Origin: Armatimonadota bacterium | GTDB lineage: Bacteria > Armatimonadota > Fimbriimonadia > Fimbriimonadales > ATM1 | Length of the DNA stretch: 64,000 bases | Assembly (NCBI GenBank): GCA_003577165.1 | Contig: QEUM01000004.1 | Location: 186,001-250,000, forward strand | Direction: 5' to 3' | In this document: positions 16,977 to 28,772 of the stretch, in pieces | How the letters are laid out: every line of letters begins with the position of its first letter | Numbering within the stretch: position 1 is the stretch's first letter | The notes under the pieces: model-generated | The model's database searches: none | The model's input: the letters and a program-made list of their open reading frames with translations, nothing else | Told to the model about the DNA's origin: nothing | Translations under genes and position numbers: made by a program

Positions 16977-18920
16977 GTGAATAACCGCACACGCACGCTT
17001 ATCATCACCCTCTTCCTCATCGCTCTTGGAGTTTGGTTCCTGAGTTCTCTGAGCAGCGGTGGCGGCGTGCTGTTCGGCGGCCCGAAGACGATCACCTATT
17101 CGACACTGCTGAACGATGCTCGCGACGGCCGGATCGACGCCGGTGAGTACCAGCAAACGAAATTTACGGCGACCTACAAGGACGGCACCAAGGTGGTCGC
17201 AAACGTCCCGAACGTCGAATCCCCCGCAGGCGGCGAGTTGCTCGCGCGGCTTTCCGAATACGGCGTGAAGGTCAACAAACTGGACCCGCCCATCAGCGAA
17301 GGGATGATGGGCATCCTGGTGACGCTTCTGCTTCCGATCGGGATTCTCGTGCTCATCTGGTTTCTTCTCATTCGGCCCGCGCAAGCCGGGGGCAACCAGG
17401 CTCTGAGTTTCGGCCGCAGCCGAGCGAAGCGGGTGAGCGAAAGCATCCCGAAGACGACGTTTGACGACGTTGCGGGAGTTGACGAAGCGAAGCAGGAACT
17501 CGAAGAGATCGTTGACTTCCTGAAGAACACGAAGAAGTACGTGGCAGTCGGCGCAAAGATCCCGAAGGGCGTGCTTCTGACTGGCCCCCCCGGATGCGGA
17601 AAGACGCACCTCGCGCGCGCAGTCGCGGGTGAGGCGGGAGTTCCCTTCTTCCACATTAGCGGCTCCGATTTCGTGGAGATGTTCGTTGGTGTCGGCGCGG
17701 CGCGCGTCAGAGACCTCTTCGAGACGGCGAAGGCGCATCGCCCGAGTTTGATTTTCGTGGACGAGATCGACGCGGTCGGCCGTCAGCGCGGCGCGGGGCT
17801 CGGCGGAGGACACGACGAGCGCGAACAGACACTCAACCAACTGCTGGTGGAGATGGATGGATTCGATCCGAACGCCGGCGTGATTCTCATCGCTGCGACG
17901 AACCGGCCGGACGTTCTCGATCCCGCCTTGCTCAGACCGGGTCGCTTCGACCGGCAAATCGTCGTGGATGCTCCCGATGTCATCGGCCGCGAGAAGATCT
18001 TACGAATCCATGCGAAGGGCAAGCCGTTTGCAAGCGACGTTGATTTATCCATCATCGCAAAGAGAACCGTCGGCTTTACCGGCGCGGACCTCGCGAATAC
18101 GCTGAACGAAGCGGCGCTCCTCACCGCACGACGCGGCAAGCAGGAGATCGCCATGGCGGAAGTGGAGGAGGCTCTCGACCGAGTGATCGCAGGGCCGCAG
18201 CGAAAGAGCCGCGTCGTCGATGCGAAAGAGCGCGAAGTGATCGCGTATCACGAAGCGGGCCACGCGATCGTGGGCGAACTGCTCGAACACACAGACCCTG
18301 TGCACAAGGTCACGATCCTTCCGCGCGGAATGTCCCTGGGAAGCACGTGGCAACTTCCGGAGACCGACAAGTACTTGGTCTCGAAGAGCGAACTGCTCGA
18401 CGACATCACTGCGCTGTTGGGTGGGCGTGTCGCGGAAGAGGTGGTTTTCGGCGAAGTGACCACCGGCGCAAGCAACGATTTAGAACGCGTGACGAACATC
18501 GCGCGAGCGATGGTGACGAAGTACGGCATGAGCGACAAACTCGGAACGCTGGCCCTCGGCCGAAGGAGCGACAACCCGTTCCTCGGTAGGGACTACATGG
18601 AGGACCGGAACTACAGCGAGGACGTCGCAAAGATGATCGACGAGGAAATCCACTCGATCGTCGAGGTCTGCCATCGTCGGGCGACGGAGATCTTAGAGTC
18701 CCATCGGGACAAGTTGGATTCGCTTGTGGCCTCGCTCATGGAGCGCGAGAGCCTCGAGAGGCAGGAGTTCCTCACGATCCTCCACGGCACGGACGAGTCG
18801 GCTGGAGCGAGCGAAGAGAAGACCTCAGAGCCAGCGGCCGCGGACGGCGTGCCGGTCGAGGAGCGGCCCCGAGAGGGTCGCCTCAGCCCCAAACTCAAGC
18901 CGGGGACAGCCGAGACTTAG
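16977..18920 (+). CDS. ftsH: ATP-dependent zinc metalloprotease FtsH
   Basis: This is a membrane-bound AAA protease for quality control of membrane and regulatory proteins. Two membrane helices (about residues 7-25 and 103-124) bracket a small periplasmic domain. The AAA module has Walker A GPPGCGKT near 202-209, Walker B FVDEIDA and the second region of homology. The peptidase has the zinc motif HEAGH near 425-429. At 647 residues it is standard. The start is GTG 16977 after a weak GGAG. Long minus-strand frames inside it are shadows. A Pro/Glu-rich tail of about 40 residues ends the protein. Confidence 0.97.
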
Positions 18921-19001: not shown

Positions 19002-19385
19002 ATGGCATCCGTGCAGGACGAGAGGCAGCAGCCAACGATGACCGTCGAGCAGCAGTATCAACAAGGATTTGAATACCGCTGCCGGGGGGAGTATGGGCTT
19101 GCAAAAGAAGCCCTCAACGAAGTGCTGCGCCTGGACCCCAGCCATATCAAGGCCAAGTGGCAGTTAGCGCTGATCAAGGGGTTCGAGGGCGATTACGACG
19201 GGAGCCTCGAAGGGCTCAGAGAGGTCGCCACTCTCGCGCCGGACGACACTGAGATTCGCTACGACTACGCGATGACCCTCACAATGCTCGGCGAGTACGC
19301 CCTGGCCGAGTCGGAGTTCCGCGAAGTCCTGCGGATGAACCCGAATCACGACAAAGCGAAGCAGCAACTCGCGTACTTCAAGTAA
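19002..19385 (+). CDS. Small tetratricopeptide-repeat protein
   Basis: The protein has 127 residues. About three degenerate TPR units are visible (around residues 16-47, 50-81 and 84-115), with the expected pattern of small and aromatic residues, such as YRCRGEYGLAKEALNEVLRLDP and YALAESEFREVLRMNP. There is no signal peptide or membrane segment, so it is cytoplasmic and probably a protein-protein adaptor. The partner is unknown. It lies between ftsH and the YfhO-like gene with its own -10 box. Confidence 0.75.
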   Translation: MASVQDERQQPTMTVEQQYQQGFEYRCRGEYGLAKEALNEVLRLDPSHIKAKWQLALIKGFEGDYDGSLEGLREVATLAPDDTEIRYDYAMTLTMLGEYALAESEFREVLRMNPNHDKAKQQLAYFK

Positions 19386-19436: not shown

Positions 19437-21653
19437 TTGAATCGCCTTCTCCGAATCTGGCCGTATCTCTTCCTTGCCGCGACGGCGATCTTGCCAACAC
19501 GTCAGTTTGTGTTCGGCGGCGAGGTTCCGGCGCCAGTGGACCAAGTTCGTCAGTTCGCTCCGTGGAACGAGCCGGCCACCCCCCCTTGGGACATCCTGCA
19601 GTTGGACGGCGCGCTTCAGTTCCTGCCGTGGCGCGACCTGATGCTGGAGTCACTTCGGAATCGTGAGGTCCCCTTGTGGAACCCGTACACACTCGGTGGG
19701 ACTCCGTTCCTGGCGAACTCTCAGTCCGCGCCTCTATATCCGGTGCACCTCATTTGGTCGCTGACTCCTTTCGGCGCGGAAGATCTCATGAGGTTTTCGG
19801 CGTGGCTGCATGTCGCGCTAATTGGTCTCGGAACGTTTGTTCTGGTTCGCACGCTCGGAGGAAACGTGACTGGGGGAATCCTCGGCGCGGTCGCCATCCA
19901 GATGAGCGCATTCACTTACGGATGGCTGCTTCTTCCCAGCGTGGGAATGACAGCCGCATGGATTCCGTGGGTGTTCGCGTGCATCGTTCGACTCGACCGA
20001 TCACGACCGGGCGCCCTCATGGGCCTGGTCGCGAGCAGCGCAGCGATGCTGCTCGCCGGGCACCTGCAGATCGCTGCATTCGGTTTGATGGGCGCGGGCA
20101 TTCTTGCGATCGCCGTCGCCGTCGGCGCCCGCTCTCTTCGACCTGTCGCTGCGATGATCGTCGGCGTTGCGATCGGCGGGCTTCTCGCGGCGCCGCAGTT
20201 GATTCCGTCCGTCCAGGCGGGCCGAAGCGGGCACAGGTCGGGAGGGCCGTCGGTCGAGGCCTGGAACGGCTACAAAAGGCAGGCCGTCGAGCCCGAGCAG
20301 TTTCTGACTCTCGTCGCGCCGACCTGGTTCGGCTTACCCAACATCAGCCTCGACTCTGATCCGAAGTTGGCGGCGGCGAAGTCGGCCGGACTGCCTGCGG
20401 ACGGCACGGCTTACTGGCTCGCCTACGCGAAGCCCGGCGCCCACTTCGCGGAAGCCGCGTTCTACGTCGGGCCGATCGTTCTTCCCCTGTTCTTCTTCGG
20501 CCTGCGACGATGGCGGGGTTTGCCGGGAATCAGCGGGCTTTCGTTGATCGCCCTGTTTTCCGCGTTGGTCGCAGTCGGGAGCGCGGTTGCTCAAGCGCTG
20601 TTCTTCTATCTGCCCGGCTGGTCTGCAACGGGTTCGCCGGGCAGGTCTGCCGTGCTGTTTGCGATCGCGCTGTGTGCCGTCGCCGGCGCATCGGTACGCG
20701 ACGAGCGGGAGGGGGGGGGACGATGGGGCTGGCTGATCGGCGTCGTCCCGCTGCTGCTTTGCGCGTACGGTCTCGCTTCGATATTCGTTGGTTCGCCAAC
20801 GGACGGCGGACCGATCGAAGCCCTCGCCGAGTGTTGGCGGCAGCGGAGTCTCGTTCCGGTTCTGATCGGCCTTGTCGGAATTGGATTGGCTGCGGCGTGC
20901 GTCGCGCGGCCCAAGTTCGCATGGGCGGGGATAGCGTTTGGGACTGTTGCCTCGTTTTGGCTGTTCGCGCCACTCAACCCAGGTTCACGGAACGAGGGGG
21001 ATTCGATTCCGATCTCGGGGCTGTCGCCGACGGACCGCGTTGCGGTCATGAACGAGAACTGGTCGCTGTATACGGCTGCGCCCGGGGTCATCGCCCCCCC
21101 CAACTCCCTGCTGCCGTATCGGATCCAAGAGGTGACCGGCTACGACTCCATCATCCCGGAGTTCACGAAGCAGAGGATGGACGACGTGAACGGCCGAGAC
21201 TCTGCGCCGGAGGCTAACGGCAACATCGTCTTCCTGAAGCCGGGCTTCGATGTCGAGAAGCTCCGCCTCGCCGGCGCCAGCCACGTACTTGCGACAGCTT
21301 CGACGGACCTCGGCAGCCTGGAGAGGGTCGCTTCGGGTAATGGGTGGGCTCTTTACGCGCTTCCCAAGCCGGACTGGCGCGTGACCGGGCCCGGCTTCAC
21401 GTCAGTCGAGGTCGAGTTTGATCGGGCAGCCCCTTTCCCCTTTGCGGATCGGGAGGACTGGCTGGAGGAGACAGACACGGGAGTTACTCCGGCGCCGGAG
21501 CGGGTCGAGCCGGGGCCACACCGGTACTTGTACCGGCCGGCCGGGTACCGCATGGGATTGATTCTTTTTCCAGTTGGCGTTTTGGCTCTCTTTTTGATAT
21601 ATTGGAGAGGGCGCGCGAAGTCTGAGAATGCCGGAAACACGAGAGCGAGTTGA
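19437..21653 (+). CDS. YfhO-family polytopic membrane protein (GT-C-like)
   Basis: The protein has 738 residues with about 12 hydrophobic helices and one last helix near residues 700-718. The N-terminal pattern resembles the YfhO family of GT-C-type membrane proteins: a first helix, then an external loop rich in aromatic residues, then PLWNPYTLGGTPFLANSQSA. In some Firmicutes YfhO glycosylates lipoteichoic acid; here the substrate is unknown, and sugar transfer to a surface polymer is a guess. The start is TTG 19437 with GGAG 6 nt upstream and TAGAAT 19 nt upstream; no ATG or GTG fits better. Its last 26 bp overlap the first clpS-like gene. Confidence 0.78.
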   Translation: MNRLLRIWPYLFLAATAILPTRQFVFGGEVPAPVDQVRQFAPWNEPATPPWDILQLDGALQFLPWRDLMLESLRNREVPLWNPYTLGGTPFLANSQSAPLYPVHLIWSLTPFGAEDLMRFSAWLHVALIGLGTFVLVRTLGGNVTGGILGAVAIQMSAFTYGWLLLPSVGMTAAWIPWVFACIVRLDRSRPGALMGLVASSAAMLLAGHLQIAAFGLMGAGILAIAVAVGARSLRPVAAMIVGVAIGGLLAAPQLIPSVQAGRSGHRSGGPSVEAWNGYKRQAVEPEQFLTLVAPTWFGLPNISLDSDPKLAAAKSAGLPADGTAYWLAYAKPGAHFAEAAFYVGPIVLPLFFFGLRRWRGLPGISGLSLIALFSALVAVGSAVAQALFFYLPGWSATGSPGRSAVLFAIALCAVAGASVRDEREGGGRWGWLIGVVPLLLCAYGLASIFVGSPTDGGPIEALAECWRQRSLVPVLIGLVGIGLAAACVARPKFAWAGIAFGTVASFWLFAPLNPGSRNEGDSIPISGLSPTDRVAVMNENWSLYTAAPGVIAPPNSLLPYRIQEVTGYDSIIPEFTKQRMDDVNGRDSAPEANGNIVFLKPGFDVEKLRLAGASHVLATASTDLGSLERVASGNGWALYALPKPDWRVTGPGFTSVEVEFDRAAPFPFADREDWLEETDTGVTPAPERVEPGPHRYLYRPAGYRMGLILFPVGVLALFLIYWRGRAKSENAGNTRAS
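21574..21603 (+). promoter_or_regulatory. Promoter of the clpS-like pair inside the yfhO-like gene
   Basis: TTGGCG (21574-21579), an 18-nt spacer and TATATT (21598-21603) lie within an unusually T-rich 60 bp at the end of the preceding gene. Transcription would begin about 17 nt before ATG 21628. Confidence 0.45.
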
Positions 21654-21924
21654 GCCGACCGTCCGTGACGCGGACTCGGGATACCGAGGACGCTACATGG
21701 CGCTGATCTTCAACAACGACAGGAACACCTTTGAGGAGGTGATGCGCCAGATCATCTTTGCGACCTCTTGCTCGCTCGAAGAGGCGTACGCGGAGACATG
21801 GGAGGCGCACACCTTTGGACAGGCGCCGGTCTACTTCGGCACCCAGAGTTCCTGCTGCGCCGTCGCCTCCATCATCTCAGCCATCGGAGTGAGGACCGAA
21901 GTTCGCCCGGAGTGGGATGAGTAG
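21628..21924 (+). CDS. ClpS-like adaptor, copy 1
   Basis: The protein has 98 residues. A disordered N-terminal tail (1-22) leads into a ClpS-like domain: the first strand YMALIFNNDRNTFEEV matches the ClpS pattern around its NDD-Y-T-P-M-E-F-V segment, followed by two helices and a final strand. By eye, the positions that bind the N-terminal residue of a substrate align with Asn29, Asn30, Asp31 and His61, so the key His and one Asp are kept. ClpS hands N-degron substrates to ClpA or ClpC. The next gene encodes a second copy and overlaps this one by 8 bp. Confidence 0.72.
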   Translation: MPETRERVEPTVRDADSGYRGRYMALIFNNDRNTFEEVMRQIIFATSCSLEEAYAETWEAHTFGQAPVYFGTQSSCCAVASIISAIGVRTEVRPEWDE

Positions 21925-22216
21925 CGCAACGCTGCCCGAACTGCTTCCCGAGATCGGGGAAGGCAAGCAGGATAGCGGCCGGGGAGACCACGGCTACATC
22001 GTCACAGTCTTCGACAACGACTACAACACGTACGACGAGGTGATGGCGATCCTCCAGATGGCGACCGGCTGCACACCCGAAGAGGCCTATATCGAGACTT
22101 GGGAGATCGACCACCTGGGGTCGTCCGTCGTGCACAACGCTTCTCGCGAGGAGTGCAACCGGGTCGCAGCGATCATCTCGACGATTGGGATTCGGGTGAC
22201 GGTTTCCGAATCCTAG
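21917..22216 (+). CDS. ClpS-like adaptor, copy 2
   Basis: The protein has 99 residues. It is clearly paralogous to the preceding gene: VTVFDNDYNTYDEVM, then CTPEEAYIETWE, then a C-terminal AAIISTIGIRV. In the presumed N-degron pocket the residues are Asp33, Asn34 and Asp35, and the position equivalent to the conserved His is Asp65, with a His one residue later. That suggests altered or lost recognition of classic N-degrons. The ATG lies inside the end of copy 1. Its last 44 bp overlap the convergent lipoprotein gene. Confidence 0.7.
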   Translation: MSSATLPELLPEIGEGKQDSGRGDHGYIVTVFDNDYNTYDEVMAILQMATGCTPEEAYIETWEIDHLGSSVVHNASREECNRVAAIISTIGIRVTVSES

Positions 22217-22601: not shown

Positions 22602-22628
22602 AGTTTATCTCCACCCCGGTGCCACAAT
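22602..22628. promoter_or_regulatory. Divergent leaderless promoters, lipoprotein / aldolase-dehydrogenase
   Basis: TAAACT on the minus strand (22607-22602) is 6 nt before the lipoprotein GTG. CACAAT on the plus strand (22623-22628) is 5 nt before GTG 22634. The rightward box has the same GGTGCCACAATC context as the mutS2 box at 5607-5618. Confidence 0.5.
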
Positions 22629-22633
22629 CGGCC

Positions 22634-24649
22634 GTGCCCCAAAGCCTTTGGAACGACCGCGAAGCGAGCCAACTGACCGGTCTCTCGCTGCTCGCCTATC
22701 GGTCTCGACTTCTGGCATCCGACAGGTCCGTCATCAACATCTACGGGGGGAACACGTCGTCGAAGGTGACCGAGGTGGATCATCTGGGCCGCGAGACCCG
22801 AGTGCTTTGGGTTAAGGGCAGCGGCTCTGACATGGCTGACTGCTCGTGCGAAAGTTTTGCCGGGCTGAAACTCGACGAGGTGCTTCCCCTGATGAAACGG
22901 GAGGACATGTCGGACGAGGAGATGGTCGAGTACCTCGGGCGATGCGTCTTCGAGCCGGGTCGGCCGCGGCAGTCCATCGAGACGCTCCTTCACGCTTTCC
23001 TGCCGTATGACGAGGTGGACCACACGCACCCGGACTCGATCATCGCTCTTGCCTGCACTGCGCGCGGGCGCGACGCTGCCGATGAAGTGTTCGGCGATCG
23101 GGCGGCGTGGGTTGATTACATCCGTCCGGGCTTCCGGCTTAGCCGGCTCATCGCGGACGCCGTCGCATCCAATCCGCGCGCTGAATGCGTGGTGATGGGA
23201 AAGCACGGATTAGTTTGTTGGGGCGACACAGCCAAGGAGAGTTACGAACGGACGATTCGCATCATCTCGGAGGCCGAAGACGCGATTCGTGAATCGGAGA
23301 AAAAGGTTTGGGCTGCGGACTTTGCACAACCTTCGATGGCCGCCATCGAGTTTCTTCCAGAACTGCGAGGCGCTGTGAGCAAGCAGCGCAAGCAGATCGT
23401 GTTGGTCGATCAGTCGGACCGAGTGCTGTCGATGGTGAATAGCCCGAGGGCAAAAGATCTGTCGCAGATCGGCGCAGCATGCCCGGATCACTTGGTGCAC
23501 GTAAAGCCGTTTCCTTTGTATTGGGATCCGACAGCTGGGCAGATAGGTGATGCGGTCGAAGAGTACCGCAGGAGGTATGAGGAGTACTTCGCCGCTCACG
23601 CAGAAGCCTCCGACGTCATGTTCGACCCGGCTCCTCGAGTCGTTTTGATTCCAGGCTTCGGCCTTGCCGCCGTCGGGAAGGACGCGCAGTTGGCCGACGT
23701 GAGCCGACAACTCTACCATCGTGCTGTCGAAGTCATCGAAGGCGCCGAAGCGCTCGGGGGATTTGAAAGCCTCTCTCATCGCGAATGCTTCGCGATCGAA
23801 TACTGGCCCCTCGAACTATACAAATTGAAGCAGAGGCCGCCCGACAAGGAACTCGCTGGTCACATCGCGCTCGTCACGGGGGGGGCAAGTGGAATCGGAA
23901 GGGCGACGGCGCTTCGACTCGCCGAGCAGGGCGCGCATGTCTGCGTCGCGGACATCAACTTCGACCGCGCGCAGGACGCGGCGGGCGAGATTCAGAAAAA
24001 GTGGGGGCTAATGAGGTCTGTTGCGGCGCAGTGCGACGTGACGTCGGAATCCGATGTCGCAAGGACGGTCGAGACGTGCGTTCTCACCTGGGGCGGGTTG
24101 GACGTCACGGTTTGCAGCGCCGGCATCGCATCGAGCGCCCCCGTCGAGGAGACCACCGAAGCGGAGTGGCAAAGGAACTTCGACGTCCTGGCCAAGGGGT
24201 ACTTCCTCTTTGCGAAGGAGTCCTTCAAGGTGTGGAGGCGGCAAGGCACTGGCGGCTCGCTGGTTTTCGTGACGAGCAAGAACGCTGTCGCGGCCGGCAA
24301 AAACGCATCGGCCTACAGCGCAGCAAAAGCCGCGGAACAGCACTTGGCGAGGTGCCTCGCCGAAGAGGGGGGGGCTCTCGGCGTTCGAGTTAATTGTGTG
24401 ATGCCGGACGCCGTGCTCTCCGGTTCTTCGATCTGGGATGGGGAGTGGAGGCGGCAGAGGGCGGAGGCCTACGGCATTCGACCGGAGGACCTCGAGGAGT
24501 TCTATCGCAACCGAACGACGCTGAAGAGGAACGTCCTGCCAGAGGATATCGCCGAGGCTGTCCTGTTCTTCGCGTCGGACCGCAGCGCAAAGACGACAGG
24601 AGCTGCGCTGACGGTTGATGCGGGAGTTCCCGCCGCGTATCTTAGGTAG
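22634..24649 (+). CDS. Bifunctional class II aldolase / short-chain dehydrogenase
   Basis: The N-terminal 400 residues are a class II aldolase (zinc ligands His130 and His132 in DHTHPD, and a later HGLVCWG). The C-terminal 260 residues are a short-chain dehydrogenase with TGGASGIG near 413 and YSAAK near 560. The same two-domain protein in other bacteria splits rhamnulose 1-phosphate and oxidises the lactaldehyde formed, so L-rhamnose use is the likely role. The protein has 671 residues with GTG 22634, chosen because the CACAAT box lies between it and the other possible GTG at 22619. trpE follows 8 bp later. Confidence 0.88.
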   Translation: MPQSLWNDREASQLTGLSLLAYRSRLLASDRSVINIYGGNTSSKVTEVDHLGRETRVLWVKGSGSDMADCSCESFAGLKLDEVLPLMKREDMSDEEMVEYLGRCVFEPGRPRQSIETLLHAFLPYDEVDHTHPDSIIALACTARGRDAADEVFGDRAAWVDYIRPGFRLSRLIADAVASNPRAECVVMGKHGLVCWGDTAKESYERTIRIISEAEDAIRESEKKVWAADFAQPSMAAIEFLPELRGAVSKQRKQIVLVDQSDRVLSMVNSPRAKDLSQIGAACPDHLVHVKPFPLYWDPTAGQIGDAVEEYRRRYEEYFAAHAEASDVMFDPAPRVVLIPGFGLAAVGKDAQLADVSRQLYHRAVEVIEGAEALGGFESLSHRECFAIEYWPLELYKLKQRPPDKELAGHIALVTGGASGIGRATALRLAEQGAHVCVADINFDRAQDAAGEIQKKWGLMRSVAAQCDVTSESDVARTVETCVLTWGGLDVTVCSAGIASSAPVEETTEAEWQRNFDVLAKGYFLFAKESFKVWRRQGTGGSLVFVTSKNAVAAGKNASAYSAAKAAEQHLARCLAEEGGALGVRVNCVMPDAVLSGSSIWDGEWRRQRAEAYGIRPEDLEEFYRNRTTLKRNVLPEDIAEAVLFFASDRSAKTTGAALTVDAGVPAAYLR

Positions 24650-24657
24650 CGTCCTGA

Positions 24658-26145
24658 ATGAGCACAGCACTGCCGATTCAGCCCAGTGCAGGCGAGTTTC
24701 GGCGCCTTTCTTCAGGCGGGAAGTTGGTGCCGATATGGTGTGTGATTCCCGCTGACTTCGAGACGCCGTTGAGCGCGTATTGGAAACTCGCCCATGATGC
24801 AGACTTCTCATTCCTCCTGGAATCTGTCACAGGCGGCGAGAACTTAGCGCGATTCAGTTTCTTGGGGGTCAATCCGAAAAGCGTCGTGCGTTGCAAGGGC
24901 AGACGCGTCTCGGTTCTTATGGCGGGTGAGTGGCAGGAGTCTGAACTCTCGCCGAACGAGACTCCTCTCGACGTGTTGCGCCGCGCAACGGTTGGACGCG
25001 AATACTGTGCGTTGGAAGGGCTGCCTCGATTCACGGGCGGGGCGGTCGGGATGCTGGCGTACGACTTGGTGCGTTTCTTCGAAAGACTTCCCCACGGCAC
25101 GAAAGACGATCTCGGCTGTGACGATCTTTCGATGATGATCTGCGACACCATCGTCGCCTTCGATCACGCAAAGAACCAGATTCTCGTCATCGCACACGCA
25201 ACGGAAGATGACAACTCTTATGAGTCGGCTGCAGAGACGATCGCATCCGTCGTAGATAGGCTTCGAGGCGGGCTGCCGGCCCTGCCTGCGGTCACGCCGG
25301 AAGAGATCAGGTTTGAGTCGAACGTCGGCAGGGAGGATTACCTCGAGTCGGTTAAGCGAACGATCGGATACATCGAGGCCGGAGACGGAGTGCAGATGGT
25401 GCTGTCCCAGCGGTTTAGTTCTGCTTGTTCCTGCCACCCTCTGCCGATCTACCGCGCATTGCGTTCACTGAACCCCTCGCCTTACATGTACCTGCTGAGG
25501 CTGGGGAACTGCGACATCGTCGGAGCATCGCCCGAGGTGCTTGTTACGTTGGACGGCCGCCGCGCGCGAGTCCGCCCCATCGCTGGAACGAGGAAGAGAG
25601 GCAAGAATGAAGCCGACGACGCTCGCATGGCGGAGGAACTGTTAGCCGACGATAAGGAGCGCGCCGAGCACATCATGCTTGTTGATCTTGGGAGAAACGA
25701 TCTCGGGCGCGTTTCGGTCCCCGGGTCCGTATCAGTGAACCAACTTATGGTGATCGAGAGGTACTCGCACGTGATGCACATCGTGAGCGATGTAACGGGG
25801 ACGATTTGCGACAACATGGACGCCTTCGACCTTTTGCGCGCGACATTTCCCGCAGGCACAGTTTCGGGCGCGCCCAAGGTGCGAGCGATGGAGATCATCG
25901 AAGAACTCGAGCCCACAAGAAGAGGACTTTACGCAGGCGCGGTTGGATATTTCGGCTTCGACGGCAACATGGACACAGCGATCGCAATCCGCACGGTGCT
26001 CTTGAAGGACGGAGCCGCGCACGTTCAAGCCGGAGCGGGCATCGTGTACGACAGCGTGCCCGAGCGCGAGTATGAAGAGTGCGTGAGCAAGGCGCGCGCC
26101 GTGATCGAAGCCGTCGAAGTTGCTGCGGGTGGCCAGGTCGGATAG
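24658..26145 (+). CDS. trpE: Anthranilate synthase component I
   Basis: The enzyme converts chorismate to anthranilate using ammonia from TrpG. The N-terminal LLESVTGGENLARFSFLG segment contains the LLES motif that binds tryptophan in feedback-inhibited enzymes. The chorismate-binding half has PEVLV, RPIAGTRKRG, HIMLVDLGRND and FPAGTVSGAPKVRAM. The length is 495 residues. PabB and isochorismate synthase are less likely because of LLES and the linked trpG. It starts 8 bp after the aldolase gene and is followed 2 bp later by the histidine kinase. Confidence 0.95.
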   Translation: MSTALPIQPSAGEFRRLSSGGKLVPIWCVIPADFETPLSAYWKLAHDADFSFLLESVTGGENLARFSFLGVNPKSVVRCKGRRVSVLMAGEWQESELSPNETPLDVLRRATVGREYCALEGLPRFTGGAVGMLAYDLVRFFERLPHGTKDDLGCDDLSMMICDTIVAFDHAKNQILVIAHATEDDNSYESAAETIASVVDRLRGGLPALPAVTPEEIRFESNVGREDYLESVKRTIGYIEAGDGVQMVLSQRFSSACSCHPLPIYRALRSLNPSPYMYLLRLGNCDIVGASPEVLVTLDGRRARVRPIAGTRKRGKNEADDARMAEELLADDKERAEHIMLVDLGRNDLGRVSVPGSVSVNQLMVIERYSHVMHIVSDVTGTICDNMDAFDLLRATFPAGTVSGAPKVRAMEIIEELEPTRRGLYAGAVGYFGFDGNMDTAIAIRTVLLKDGAAHVQAGAGIVYDSVPEREYEECVSKARAVIEAVEVAAGGQVG

Positions 26146-26147
26146 AG

Positions 26148-27602
26148 ATGCGCGGGGGTGAGCGCAGCAGCGAACCGTTCTACGCTCGCAGCCTTGCGGA
26201 ACGCCTTGCGGGCGTGCGACTGGTGCTCACGATCATCAACTTCGGTGTTTTGTTCCTCGATGCGAAATTCGAGGCCTCCTCGGCGAACATAAATCTTCCG
26301 ATCGGGGTGGGAGTCGCGTGCGCGTTCTTCGTATATGCGCTCGTCTCTTACGGAATGCTGAGGTATGGGTATGCGAAGCTGGCGACGTATGAGTTGGTAT
26401 CACCGCTTCTCGACATAGGATTCGCAGTGGCATTGATCTCGTTTACCGGGAGTTACACGAGTCCTTTCAATCTCTGGATCGTTTTCGGCGTGATCGGCAC
26501 GGGCTTCAGCCGCTACGCCTGGCTGCCGTGGCTGGCGACCGGCATGGGTTTCTTGGGGCACTTCGTCATCGCAAGTGTGCCTCAGCCCGTTCCGTTGGAC
26601 GTGACGGTGGTGCTCGTTCGATCCACCTTCCTTCTCGGAGTCGGCGCCGTGGTGGCCATCACGACCTCGTATCTCACTCAGCAGTCGAAACTGTTGGCTG
26701 CGATCGAGTCGGCGGCAGGGGAGTTTTCGCAGGCCCACACGGAAGATGACGTTGTCACGATTCTGCTTCGGAACCTGCAGTCCAACTTAGGCTTGGACGA
26801 GGTGTGGGTGTCGTTGGAGGGACGTGCTGGAAGCGAGGCGATAAAGCACGTGCACGGACTCACTCGGAAACTGCTCGCGAGCAATCAGGACCTTGGAACG
26901 GTTGTCATCGGGACGAACAAGCCGATCAGCAAGCAGCAGGGCTCTCTCATCGCCGTGCTTTGCGACAGAGCGGCTGCTGCTCTCTACCGGATTCGTGCCA
27001 ACGAGCGCCTTGCGGAATCGCGTGCCCTCGGCGAAAGGCGGCGCATCGCAGACGAACTGCACGACAACTTTCTTCAGACTCTCGCAGCCCTCGACATGCG
27101 CGCGGAGGCTGCGAGGATTCTGGCTGGCCCGCAGATGGAGGCCGTTCAATCCGAACTCGACGCGATCAAGCAGATCGCGCGTGATGCAGCGCAACAAGTT
27201 CGGGACATCGCGATCGCTCCGCTTGGAGCGGAATCGCTCACGACGGCCGGCCTCGAGGCCCTGCTCCAATCGCGATGGCCGGGCGACGTCGAGATGGACG
27301 TTGACGCCAGTATTGCGCTCAGCGACGTTGAGAGTCGCGCGCTGCGACTCCTCATCACCGAAGGTTTGAACAACGCAAAGCGACACGCGAGAGCGACGAA
27401 GGTCACCTTCCGAATGACGCGCCGAGGAGCATCGGTAGTGTGTTCATTAGAAGACAACGGAATCGGGATGCAGCCGAAGTTTGAAACCGGTTACGGCCTC
27501 ACGCGGCTGAGAGAACTTGTCGAAGAGGCGGGCGGATCGCTCGACATCGGAGTGTTGCCGGACGGGGGGGCGCGCATCACGGCGGAGTTCAGACGGGCAT
27601 GA
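26148..27602 (+). CDS. Membrane sensor histidine kinase, NarL/DegS type
   Basis: The protein has 484 residues from ATG 26148, 2 bp after the trpE stop (the frame is open further upstream inside trpE). The N-terminal 185 residues hold about six membrane helices with no large external domain, so the signal is probably sensed in or near the membrane. A GAF-like region (about 195-285) follows. The HisKA_3 box is ERRRIADELHDNFLQTL with phospho-acceptor His305. The ATPase domain has EDNGIGM and GYGLTRLRE. The gene overlaps the response-regulator gene by 4 bp (ATGA). Confidence 0.93.
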   Translation: MRGGERSSEPFYARSLAERLAGVRLVLTIINFGVLFLDAKFEASSANINLPIGVGVACAFFVYALVSYGMLRYGYAKLATYELVSPLLDIGFAVALISFTGSYTSPFNLWIVFGVIGTGFSRYAWLPWLATGMGFLGHFVIASVPQPVPLDVTVVLVRSTFLLGVGAVVAITTSYLTQQSKLLAAIESAAGEFSQAHTEDDVVTILLRNLQSNLGLDEVWVSLEGRAGSEAIKHVHGLTRKLLASNQDLGTVVIGTNKPISKQQGSLIAVLCDRAAAALYRIRANERLAESRALGERRRIADELHDNFLQTLAALDMRAEAARILAGPQMEAVQSELDAIKQIARDAAQQVRDIAIAPLGAESLTTAGLEALLQSRWPGDVEMDVDASIALSDVESRALRLLITEGLNNAKRHARATKVTFRMTRRGASVVCSLEDNGIGMQPKFETGYGLTRLRELVEEAGGSLDIGVLPDGGARITAEFRRA

Positions 27603-28216
27603 ACCGAGTCCGAGTCTTGATCGTCGACGATCACGTCGTCGTCGTCGAGGGCTTGGTCCGATTGCTTTCTTTTGACAAGAGGATCGAAGTCGTGGGCCGA
27701 GCGGCGAGCCTTTCCGAAGCGAAGACGCTGATGCAGCGCGTCGAGCCTGATGTGATCCTGCTCGACGTTCTTCTTCCTGACTCGAAGGACCTGTCGAGCA
27801 TCGGGGTTTTGAAGGCCATCCAGCCTCATGTGAAAGTGATTGTCTTGACGGGCCAGGGCAAGGCGATCCGTGGAGCGGCGGTGCGGGCGGGTGCAGACGG
27901 TTTCCTCACGAAAGAACTTGCCTCCGACGTAATCGCTCAACGGATTGCGGAGATCGCGGCCGGATCGCCTCAACACGATGAGCAGGAGTTGACGCACCGC
28001 GAGATTGACGTTTGCCGGCTGGTTGCGGAGGGGCTGACGAACGAGGAGATCGCGCAGAGCCTTGTTCTGTCAGTGAACACAGTTAAGACGCACTTGGCGT
28101 CAGCGCTCAGGAAGTTGGGGCTGCGCGACCGAGTTGCGGTCGCCGTATACTGGACTACCAGGCTGATGGGGCCTGCCCCCACAGAGCATTCAAAAGATGA
28201 TTCTGATTCTCGATAA
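27599..28216 (+). CDS. Response regulator, NarL/FixJ type
   Basis: The protein has 205 residues. The receiver domain has the acidic pair in IVDDH, the phosphorylated Asp56 in LLDVLLPD, the Thr in VLTGQG and the Lys in FLTKE. The output domain is a LuxR-type helix-turn-helix (LTHREIDVCRLVAEGLTNEEIAQ, then VNTVKTHLASALRKLG). It pairs with the preceding kinase. Its last 20 bp overlap the trpG start, so it is locked into the trp transcript. Target genes cannot be read from the sequence. Confidence 0.94.
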   Translation: MNRVRVLIVDDHVVVVEGLVRLLSFDKRIEVVGRAASLSEAKTLMQRVEPDVILLDVLLPDSKDLSSIGVLKAIQPHVKVIVLTGQGKAIRGAAVRAGADGFLTKELASDVIAQRIAEIAAGSPQHDEQELTHREIDVCRLVAEGLTNEEIAQSLVLSVNTVKTHLASALRKLGLRDRVAVAVYWTTRLMGPAPTEHSKDDSDSR

Positions 28217-28772
28217 CTACGACAGTTTCACTTACAACCTCGCTCAATACGTTCAAGAGTTGGGAGCCGAGGTCGTCGTTCGGCGAAACGATGACATCAC
28301 CGTGGAGGAGATCGAGGCGATGGCGCCGCAGGGAATCCTCATCAGTCCAGGACCGTGCACACCGGACAAGGCGGGGATTTCGGAGGAAGTCATCCAACGC
28401 CTGGGCGGTCGAATTCCGATCTTCGGTGTCTGCTTGGGGATGCAGGCGATTGGAGAGGTGTACGGAGGCAAGATCGTGCGCGCGAAGCAGATCATGCACG
28501 GAAAGGATTCAGAGATCCGTCATGAAGGGAAGGGAGTGTTTCAGGGCCTGCCGAGCCGGTTTCGGGCGATTCGGTACCACAGCCTGGTCATAGAACCCTC
28601 CTCGGTGCCTTCGGAACTCGAAGTCACGGCGACCAGCGAAGATGGGGAGATCATGGGGGTGCGTCACCGCGGCCTCGACGTCGAGGGAGTGCAGTTCCAT
28701 CCAGAAAGCGCGCTCTCCGAGAGCGGCAAGGAACTCGTGGCGAACTGGGTCCGTCGGGTCACCTCGCGCTAA
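28197..28772 (+). CDS. trpG: Anthranilate synthase component II (glutamine amidotransferase)
   Basis: The amidotransferase supplies ammonia to TrpE and possibly also to PabB. The nucleophile Cys is in GVCLGMQA, the His-Glu pair is in VQFHPES, and the N terminus ILILDNYDSFTYN is diagnostic for TrpG/PabA. The length is 191 residues. It begins inside the response-regulator gene (20-bp overlap). trpD, often next, is not here. The downstream 107 bp contain the TATCTT box of the next gene. Confidence 0.95.
   Translation: MILILDNYDSFTYNLAQYVQELGAEVVVRRNDDITVEEIEAMAPQGILISPGPCTPDKAGISEEVIQRLGGRIPIFGVCLGMQAIGEVYGGKIVRAKQIMHGKDSEIRHEGKGVFQGLPSRFRAIRYHSLVIEPSSVPSELEVTATSEDGEIMGVRHRGLDVEGVQFHPESALSESGKELVANWVRRVTSR

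Follow-up and report, generated by a model that had tools for sequence, protein, structure and literature searches.

Two overlapping genes for small ClpS-like proteins lie in the 64,000-nucleotide stretch of Armatimonadota DNA analysed here (the window), part of a 2.75 Mb genome, and raise the question of whether their products read different N-terminal degradation signals. The first gene (c1; 21628..21924, + strand) encodes 98 aa and the second (c2; 21917..22216, + strand) 99 aa, in agreement with a preliminary description of two overlapping ClpS-like genes of about 98 residues, and the end of c1 shares 8 nt with the start of c2 (ATGAGTAG, 21917–21924). Each product is a stand-alone protein with a single Pfam domain, scoring 27.5 bits (c1) and 37.9 bits (c2) against the ClpS family (PF02617; cut-off 23), and both fall short of every NCBIfam equivalog model for ClpS (best scores of 15.1 bits for c1 and 16.1 bits for c2, against 117). 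Predicted structures agreed with ClpS crystal structures at an rmsd of ~1 Å, with TM-scores by target length of up to 0.94 (c1) and 0.92 (c2). Foldseek matches at E ≤ 0.001 comprised 36 chains for c1 and 38 for c2, all ClpS or ClpS-like; the only chains that are not ClpS itself (one for c1, two for c2) belong to 4o2x, titled as a malarial protein and elsewhere named as ClpS-containing. Both copies thus passed the profile search and the structure prediction proposed as checks in the preliminary description, confirming that c1 and c2 are ClpS-fold proteins.

A search of relatives for two-copy clpS, also proposed earlier, revealed that the tandem pair recurs across Fimbriimonadales (Armatimonadota), with 115 loci besides the window when duplicates between collections are counted; with the window included, first and second copies each number 73 distinct sequences. 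ClpS matches were present in 161 of 291 Armatimonadota genomes; two matches are usual in the window's own family (f1), in the next (f2) and in f4, and are in tandem at the loci fetched. Single matches are rare in f1 and f2 (G078, G098, G108, G132 and G133, that of G098 at a contig end), five f2 genomes (G075, G077, G102, G113 and G114) gave no ClpS match, and one genome (G105) gave three. When the possible c2 start nearest the c1 stop is taken in each of 72 pairs, a mechanical choice that is biased towards overlap, 50 starts fall inside c1 and another 16 are no more than 30 nt away. A c2 profile splits the ClpS proteins of the phylum into class II (best E-value per genome ≤4e-30) and class I (1e-11 to 1e-22), with labels assigned to genomes by hand from these scores; both window copies fall into class II, and the sole match of G108, an f2 genome, scores in the class I range. 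There are also 20 distinct c2-type sequences of class II that occur singly, ten of them from genomes outside the order (L104–L117). A quick maximum-likelihood tree was built from 212 rows and only 83 columns, leaving out L120, in which copy 1 is broken across frames; of the 209 inner branches, 105 are unresolved. In this tree, all 73 distinct first copies and three singles form a copy-1 clade (SH-aLRT 100) nested within an Armatimonadota class II clade of 170 rows (SH-aLRT 100). Over sampled pairs, first copies share a mean identity of 52% with one another and second copies 57%, against 41% for a first copy compared with a second. Median dN/dS was 0.056 for c1 (12 pairs) and 0.083 for c2 (13 pairs), few pairs being testable. 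The presence of the tandem in many genomes, together with low dN/dS in the tested pairs, rules out a chance or frame artefact. A single pattern-seeded pass beyond the phylum yielded 170 stretches, of which 88 were confirmed and 80 kept; 73 of those kept carry an Armatimonadota taxon label, five are labelled 'bacterium' and two (L162 and L170) are apparently mislabelled, and it is possible that class II is spread more widely than Armatimonadota.

The copies differ in the pocket. By alignment, E. coli ClpS residues 34–36 correspond to N29 N30 D31 in c1 (21712..21720, + strand) and D33 N34 D35 in c2 (22013..22021, + strand), and His66 corresponds to His61 in c1 (21808..21810, + strand) and to Asp65, followed by His66, in c2 (22109..22111, + strand). 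In E. coli numbering, used hereafter, c1 and c2 therefore read N/D at 34, N/N at 35, D/D at 36, H/D at 66 and T/H at 67, and the residues that had been read by eye (His61 in c1, Asp65 with His next in c2, and Asn at 35 in both) are recovered. The window c1 has the canonical Asn34/Asp36/His66 amino-group triad; the window c2 has Asp at all three positions. Among the 73 first copies, the letters at 34/35/36/66 are NNDH in 37, NNEH in 11, NDDH in 9 and others in 16, such that the N34-[D/E]36-H66 triad is present in 57 and missing in 16. The 73 second copies read NNDD (21), NNED (21), DNDH (15), DNDD (8), DNPD (3), DNSD (2), NNDH (2) or DNED (1), with the canonical N-D-H combination in two. Residue 66 is Asp in 56 second copies and His in the other 17, so the preliminary claim that the pockets differ stands as a lasting difference, but not in the form of a fixed His/Asp difference at 66.

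Other features separate the copies more steadily than residue 66, namely residue 65, how many acids the amino-group site contains, and an E-W motif close to the C-terminus (70/73 first copies, 3/73 second copies). The steadiest is residue 65, part of the side-chain pocket: 71 of 73 first copies have Ala there and all 73 second copies have Ile or Val, a rule obeyed by 144 of 146 sequences. The gatekeeper at position 40 is mixed in first copies (F 24, M 16, Y 11, I 8, V 6) and Tyr in 48 of 73 second copies. Since the hydrophobic pockets differ at residue 65 and at the gatekeeper, the two proteins probably prefer different N-terminal or second residues.

Variation at the amino-group site is not independent across positions. 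In Caulobacter ClpS, the substrate alpha-amino group is reported to be contacted by Asn47, Asp49 and His79 (PMC12493166), which correspond to E. coli 34, 36 and 66 in our alignment; by this homology, residues 34, 36 and 66 would hold the amino group in class II proteins. Pagel models were fitted because a test on independent pairs had no power (two starred pairs), using a FastTree tree built without the tested columns. Residues 34 and 66 coevolve (LR 27.7, p = 1.4e-5; LR 24.2–33.8 on 12 resampled trees), and only one of the control column pairs (225 assessed out of 528), the neighbours 75–76, scored as high, with a median LR of 4.2. The 36–66 pair ranked fifth among the 225 control pairs (LR 17.3). 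Of the 56 second copies with Asp66, 42 have Asn34, and of the 17 with His66, 15 have Asp34; where 36 is not acidic, both 34 and 66 are acids in 5/5 second copies and 1/3 single c2-type copies. Exactly two acids among 34, 36 and 66 were found in 77 of 93 rows (the second copies plus the 20 c2-type class II singles, with c1 left out), against 47.1 ± 4.6 in shuffles that ignore kinship. Nine of the 73 second copies lie above this two-acid pattern and two below; the window c2, with three acids, is among the nine and counts against the interpretation favoured below. The presence of His66 in 17 of 73 second copies, together with the coevolution of 66 with 34 and 36, rules out the His-to-Asp change alone as a specificity switch, and a different degron class does not necessarily follow from this change alone.

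We consider it reasonably probable that c1 and c2 are co-translated N-recognins whose pockets have diverged and which serve ClpCP as adaptors, probably with different preferences. On this reading, the overlapping genes would be translated together, the pocket of each adaptor would grip the free N-terminus of a target protein, and each adaptor would pass the gripped protein to ClpC-ClpP. The amino-group site of c1 would be the canonical Asn34, Asp36 and His66, and that of c2 would carry an extra acid (Asp34, Asp36 and Asp66 here; two of the three acidic in most relatives), for which the ClpS domains of UBR1/UBR2 provide a match in the alignment. A division of labour between c1 and c2 would follow, and one copy may serve classic N-degrons and the other a different class, as proposed earlier. 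Redundant paralogues with drifting pockets and equal specificity, for which there are precedents in the paralogous ClpS genes of other bacteria (PMC12493166, PMC7966870, as far as their accessible text goes) and in the switching of c2 pocket letters between solutions, seem to us improbable given that two distinct groups are maintained across the order, that the residue-65 rule holds in 144 of 146 sequences and that so few f1 and f2 genomes (the five named above) have a single match.

A second alternative assigns recognition to c2 and makes c1 a regulator or competitor, occupying the ClpC N-domain or paired with c2 and delivering no substrate. The c1 pockets are the more variable, with 16 of 73 lacking N34-[D/E]36-H66, and in one copy 1 (L093:806-1096) the pocket motif is lost and the frame is still open, which also counts against two working adaptors; the conserved C-terminal E-W motif is specific to c1, and overlapping genes would favour matched amounts. 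Against these points, the canonical triad (with Asp or Glu at 36) is kept in 57 of 73 first copies under low dN/dS, and G132 and G133 retain a copy-1-type gene alone, leading us to regard a purely regulatory c1 as unlikely, if worth keeping in view.

The interpretation as two diverged adaptors was compared with known systems. Canonical ClpS (E. coli, Caulobacter) shares with both copies the fold, Val43 and a similar length of N-terminal extension (20 aa in c1, 24 aa in c2), and shares the Asn/Asp/His triad with c1. Both window copies differ from it in Asn35, Asn38, Trp63 and Glu64, in the loss of Lys84 and of the tandem prolines, and in scoring below every NCBIfam equivalog cut-off; most relatives also differ in having His74, for which the window c1 has Tyr74. 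Synechococcus elongatus ClpS1 and ClpS2 are reported to act with ClpC and to bind different N-termini in vitro (PMC7966870), and resemble c1 and c2 as two ClpS adaptors in one cell, but the available text of that study does not mention a tandem arrangement for cyanobacteria. Two ClpS proteins with different reading preferences are also suspected in Leptospira, according to the accessible part of another report (PMC12493166), in which Leptospira interrogans ClpS1, carrying the His-to-Asp change, binds ClpA at 0.44 µM. As described there, this protein resembles c2 in having Asp at the amino-group position, a Tyr gatekeeper and Val at Lys84, and its pocket at 34–36 reads Asp/Asp/Asn when the published numbers are mapped to our alignment; its gene, unlike the c1/c2 tandem, lies apart from clpS2, which adjoins clpA. 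No paper on Armatimonadota ClpS was among the literature matches listed, and in view of this and of the cyanobacterial and Leptospira precedents, we describe the pair as a new form of two-ClpS arrangement.

Eukaryotic N-recognins provide a further comparison. A PDB profile search with c2 placed UBR1/UBR2 (9wbw and 9wbv, which we take to be the human proteins) above all bacterial ClpS (E-value 5e-8 against 5e-3 for the best of the latter), and c1 found UBR1/UBR2 at 9e-7 and 3e-6. A class I profile, however, found UBR2/UBR1 about equally well (7e-9 and 1e-7), together with E. coli ClpS at 2e-12, and the idea of class II as a special UBR1 relative was not upheld; by these profile scores, class II has moved away from bacterial ClpS without being specially close to UBR. 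In the alignments, the UBR1/UBR2 ClpS domains have Asp at 66, as in c2, and Glu at 36. They are domains inside large ubiquitin ligases, whereas c1 and c2 are stand-alone proteins of 98–99 aa and do not have the architecture of a UBR1/UBR2 type-2 N-recognin, in which the ClpS domain is part of a ubiquitin ligase with a UBR box. A double mutant in the ClpS domain of S. pombe Ubr11 is reported to be unable to recognise type-2 N-termini (PMC4447728), indicating, as far as the accessible text goes, that ClpS domains of the UBR type are working N-recognins.

Potential partners for the pair are present in the genome. As described previously, clpB lies about 7.5 kb away (its start is 7506 nt beyond the end of c2) and the window contains no ClpA/ClpC or ClpP; the genome search that had been advised for clpC/clpA and clpP located a ClpC-type protein and one ClpP on another contig. 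Only two proteins with a Clp N-domain were found in the genome, the window ClpB and an 827-aa protein (counted from its ATG) that adjoins an McsB-like protein arginine kinase and contains, by eye, an IGF sequence, presumably the ClpP-binding loop. ClpC type is our own naming for this protein, the best NCBIfam matches of which are ClpB, ClpA and others, all below the cut-off shown.

Several residues associated with Clp binding elsewhere are altered in the pair, and each of these changes counts against ClpCP adaptors. Glu79, Glu82 and Lys84 are given as ClpA contacts in the available text of PMC12493166; residue 84 is Val in both window copies, with Ser (c1) and Glu (c2) at 79, and across the set Val or Ala replaces Lys84 in 67 first copies and 70 second copies (of 73 each). 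For M. tuberculosis, Asp35 was modelled as the residue chiefly in contact with ClpC1 Lys85 and is described as universally conserved (PMC6274998, accessible text), yet Asn occupies position 35, mapped via the M. smegmatis alignment, in 62 of the 73 first copies and in all 73 second copies. Tandem prolines are described as typical of the junction of the ClpS N-terminal extension (PMC9663308, accessible text), and none of the 73 first or 73 second copies has them within ten residues taken around this junction.

The position of the pair also counts against this reading, as it adjoins an ftsH region rather than clpC. Upstream in the window lie ftsH (16977..18920, + strand; Pfam, recurrent upstream), a TPR protein of the same recurrent neighbourhood (19002..19385, + strand; Pfam, neighbourhood comparison) and a 738-aa protein, hydrophobic by eye, with no Pfam family at E ≤ 1 (19437..21653, + strand), whose end overlaps c1 by 26 nt; the defence-system models that were run gave no match. 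Among the 67 distinct pair loci with room for it, 47 have a same-strand homologue of the 738-aa protein next to c1 and 18 have no same-strand match, and the order ftsH, TPR, hydrophobic gene was seen in the larger pair loci L205 and L208 and in the single-copy locus L202. This recurrent order, continuing into c1 and c2, and the alteration of ClpA/ClpC-binding residues known elsewhere would fit a pair that serves the FtsH encoded upstream and hands N-degron proteins to a membrane protease rather than to ClpC. We hold that to be very doubtful: no Clp N-domain is among the FtsH Pfam matches, no ftsH homologue lies within a few kb at any single-copy ClpS locus examined, and of the 31 distinct pair loci for which more than 3.9 kb of upstream sequence was available, only 17 showed a same-strand ftsH homologue there, ftsH being on the opposite strand in L054 and L079.

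Adaptors that diverged in preference might be matched to different sources of N-degrons. The genome encodes a Leu/Phe-transferase, the products of which always have a basic second residue; an ATE_C/Bpt-type transferase was looked for and not found. Across the 291 genomes, ClpS and Leu/Phe-transferase occur together in 124, ClpS only in 37, transferase only in 8 and neither in 122, as raw counts that ignore kinship and completeness; this co-occurrence speaks for the adaptor reading. On the same raw basis, the transferase was present in 103 of 117 class II genomes and 19 of 42 class I-only genomes, leaving aside G108 (for its class I-like score in f2) and G173 (canonical ClpS); the 14 class II genomes without a transferase match count against the adaptor interpretation. 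G078 has the c2 type only and a transferase, G132 and G133 have the c1 type only and no transferase match, and four genomes with completeness >90% (G071, G123, G129 and G130) have both copies and no transferase match, making the link between c2 and transferase from single-copy losses suggestive only. A two-channel N-degron system, in which c2, through its UBR-like amino-group site with two acids, would favour the Leu/Phe-Arg/Lys ends that Leu/Phe-transferase produces and c1 would read a separate set of natural or cleavage-made ends, is put forward as a speculative extension that we consider unlikely.

If the two-channel system were to exist, the swaps at 34, 36 and 66 would be a record of how His is replaced by Asp in a ClpS pocket, as in UBR1/UBR2. 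Much of an order keeps a coupled pair of ClpS genes, the second of which carries natural, coevolving swaps at residues that would hold the N-terminus. These sequences provide a natural and testable set of variants for the recognition of free amino groups by ClpS and UBR ligases, and may yield proteins that bind N-terminal amino acids with other preferences.

Copy 1, the first of the two overlapping ClpS-like genes, varies in form between loci. In two genomes of 1.5 Mb (G132, locus L207; G133, locus L097), the sole ClpS retained is of the copy-1 type, and neither genome gave a match to the Leu/Phe-transferase. At two other loci (L120:3798–4102 and L206:4368–4672) copy 1 is divided over two frames, which may be either genuine or an assembly error. 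A further copy 1 (L093:806–1096) is without the pocket motif, with Q, T, G and G at positions 34, 35, 36 and 66 (E. coli ClpS numbering), and retains both an open frame and the C-terminal motif despite this loss. The records of loci L162 and L170, titled Methanoregulaceae archaeon and Actinomycetota bacterium, look mislabelled; they appear to correspond to genomes G129 and G210, which the genome collection places in Armatimonadota.

Other genes in the window include a fusion of a class II aldolase domain with a short-chain dehydrogenase (22619–24649), identified by domain matches, and apparent trpE and trpG homologues, judged by eye, with a histidine kinase/response regulator-like pair in between (24658–28772). 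On contig C18 of the same genome, an McsB-like protein arginine kinase (L199:3906–5168, minus strand) scores 157.8 bits, under the equivalog cut-off of 385. Its position immediately 5′ of the ClpC-type gene suggests that this organism has a route to ClpC that runs through arginine phosphate.
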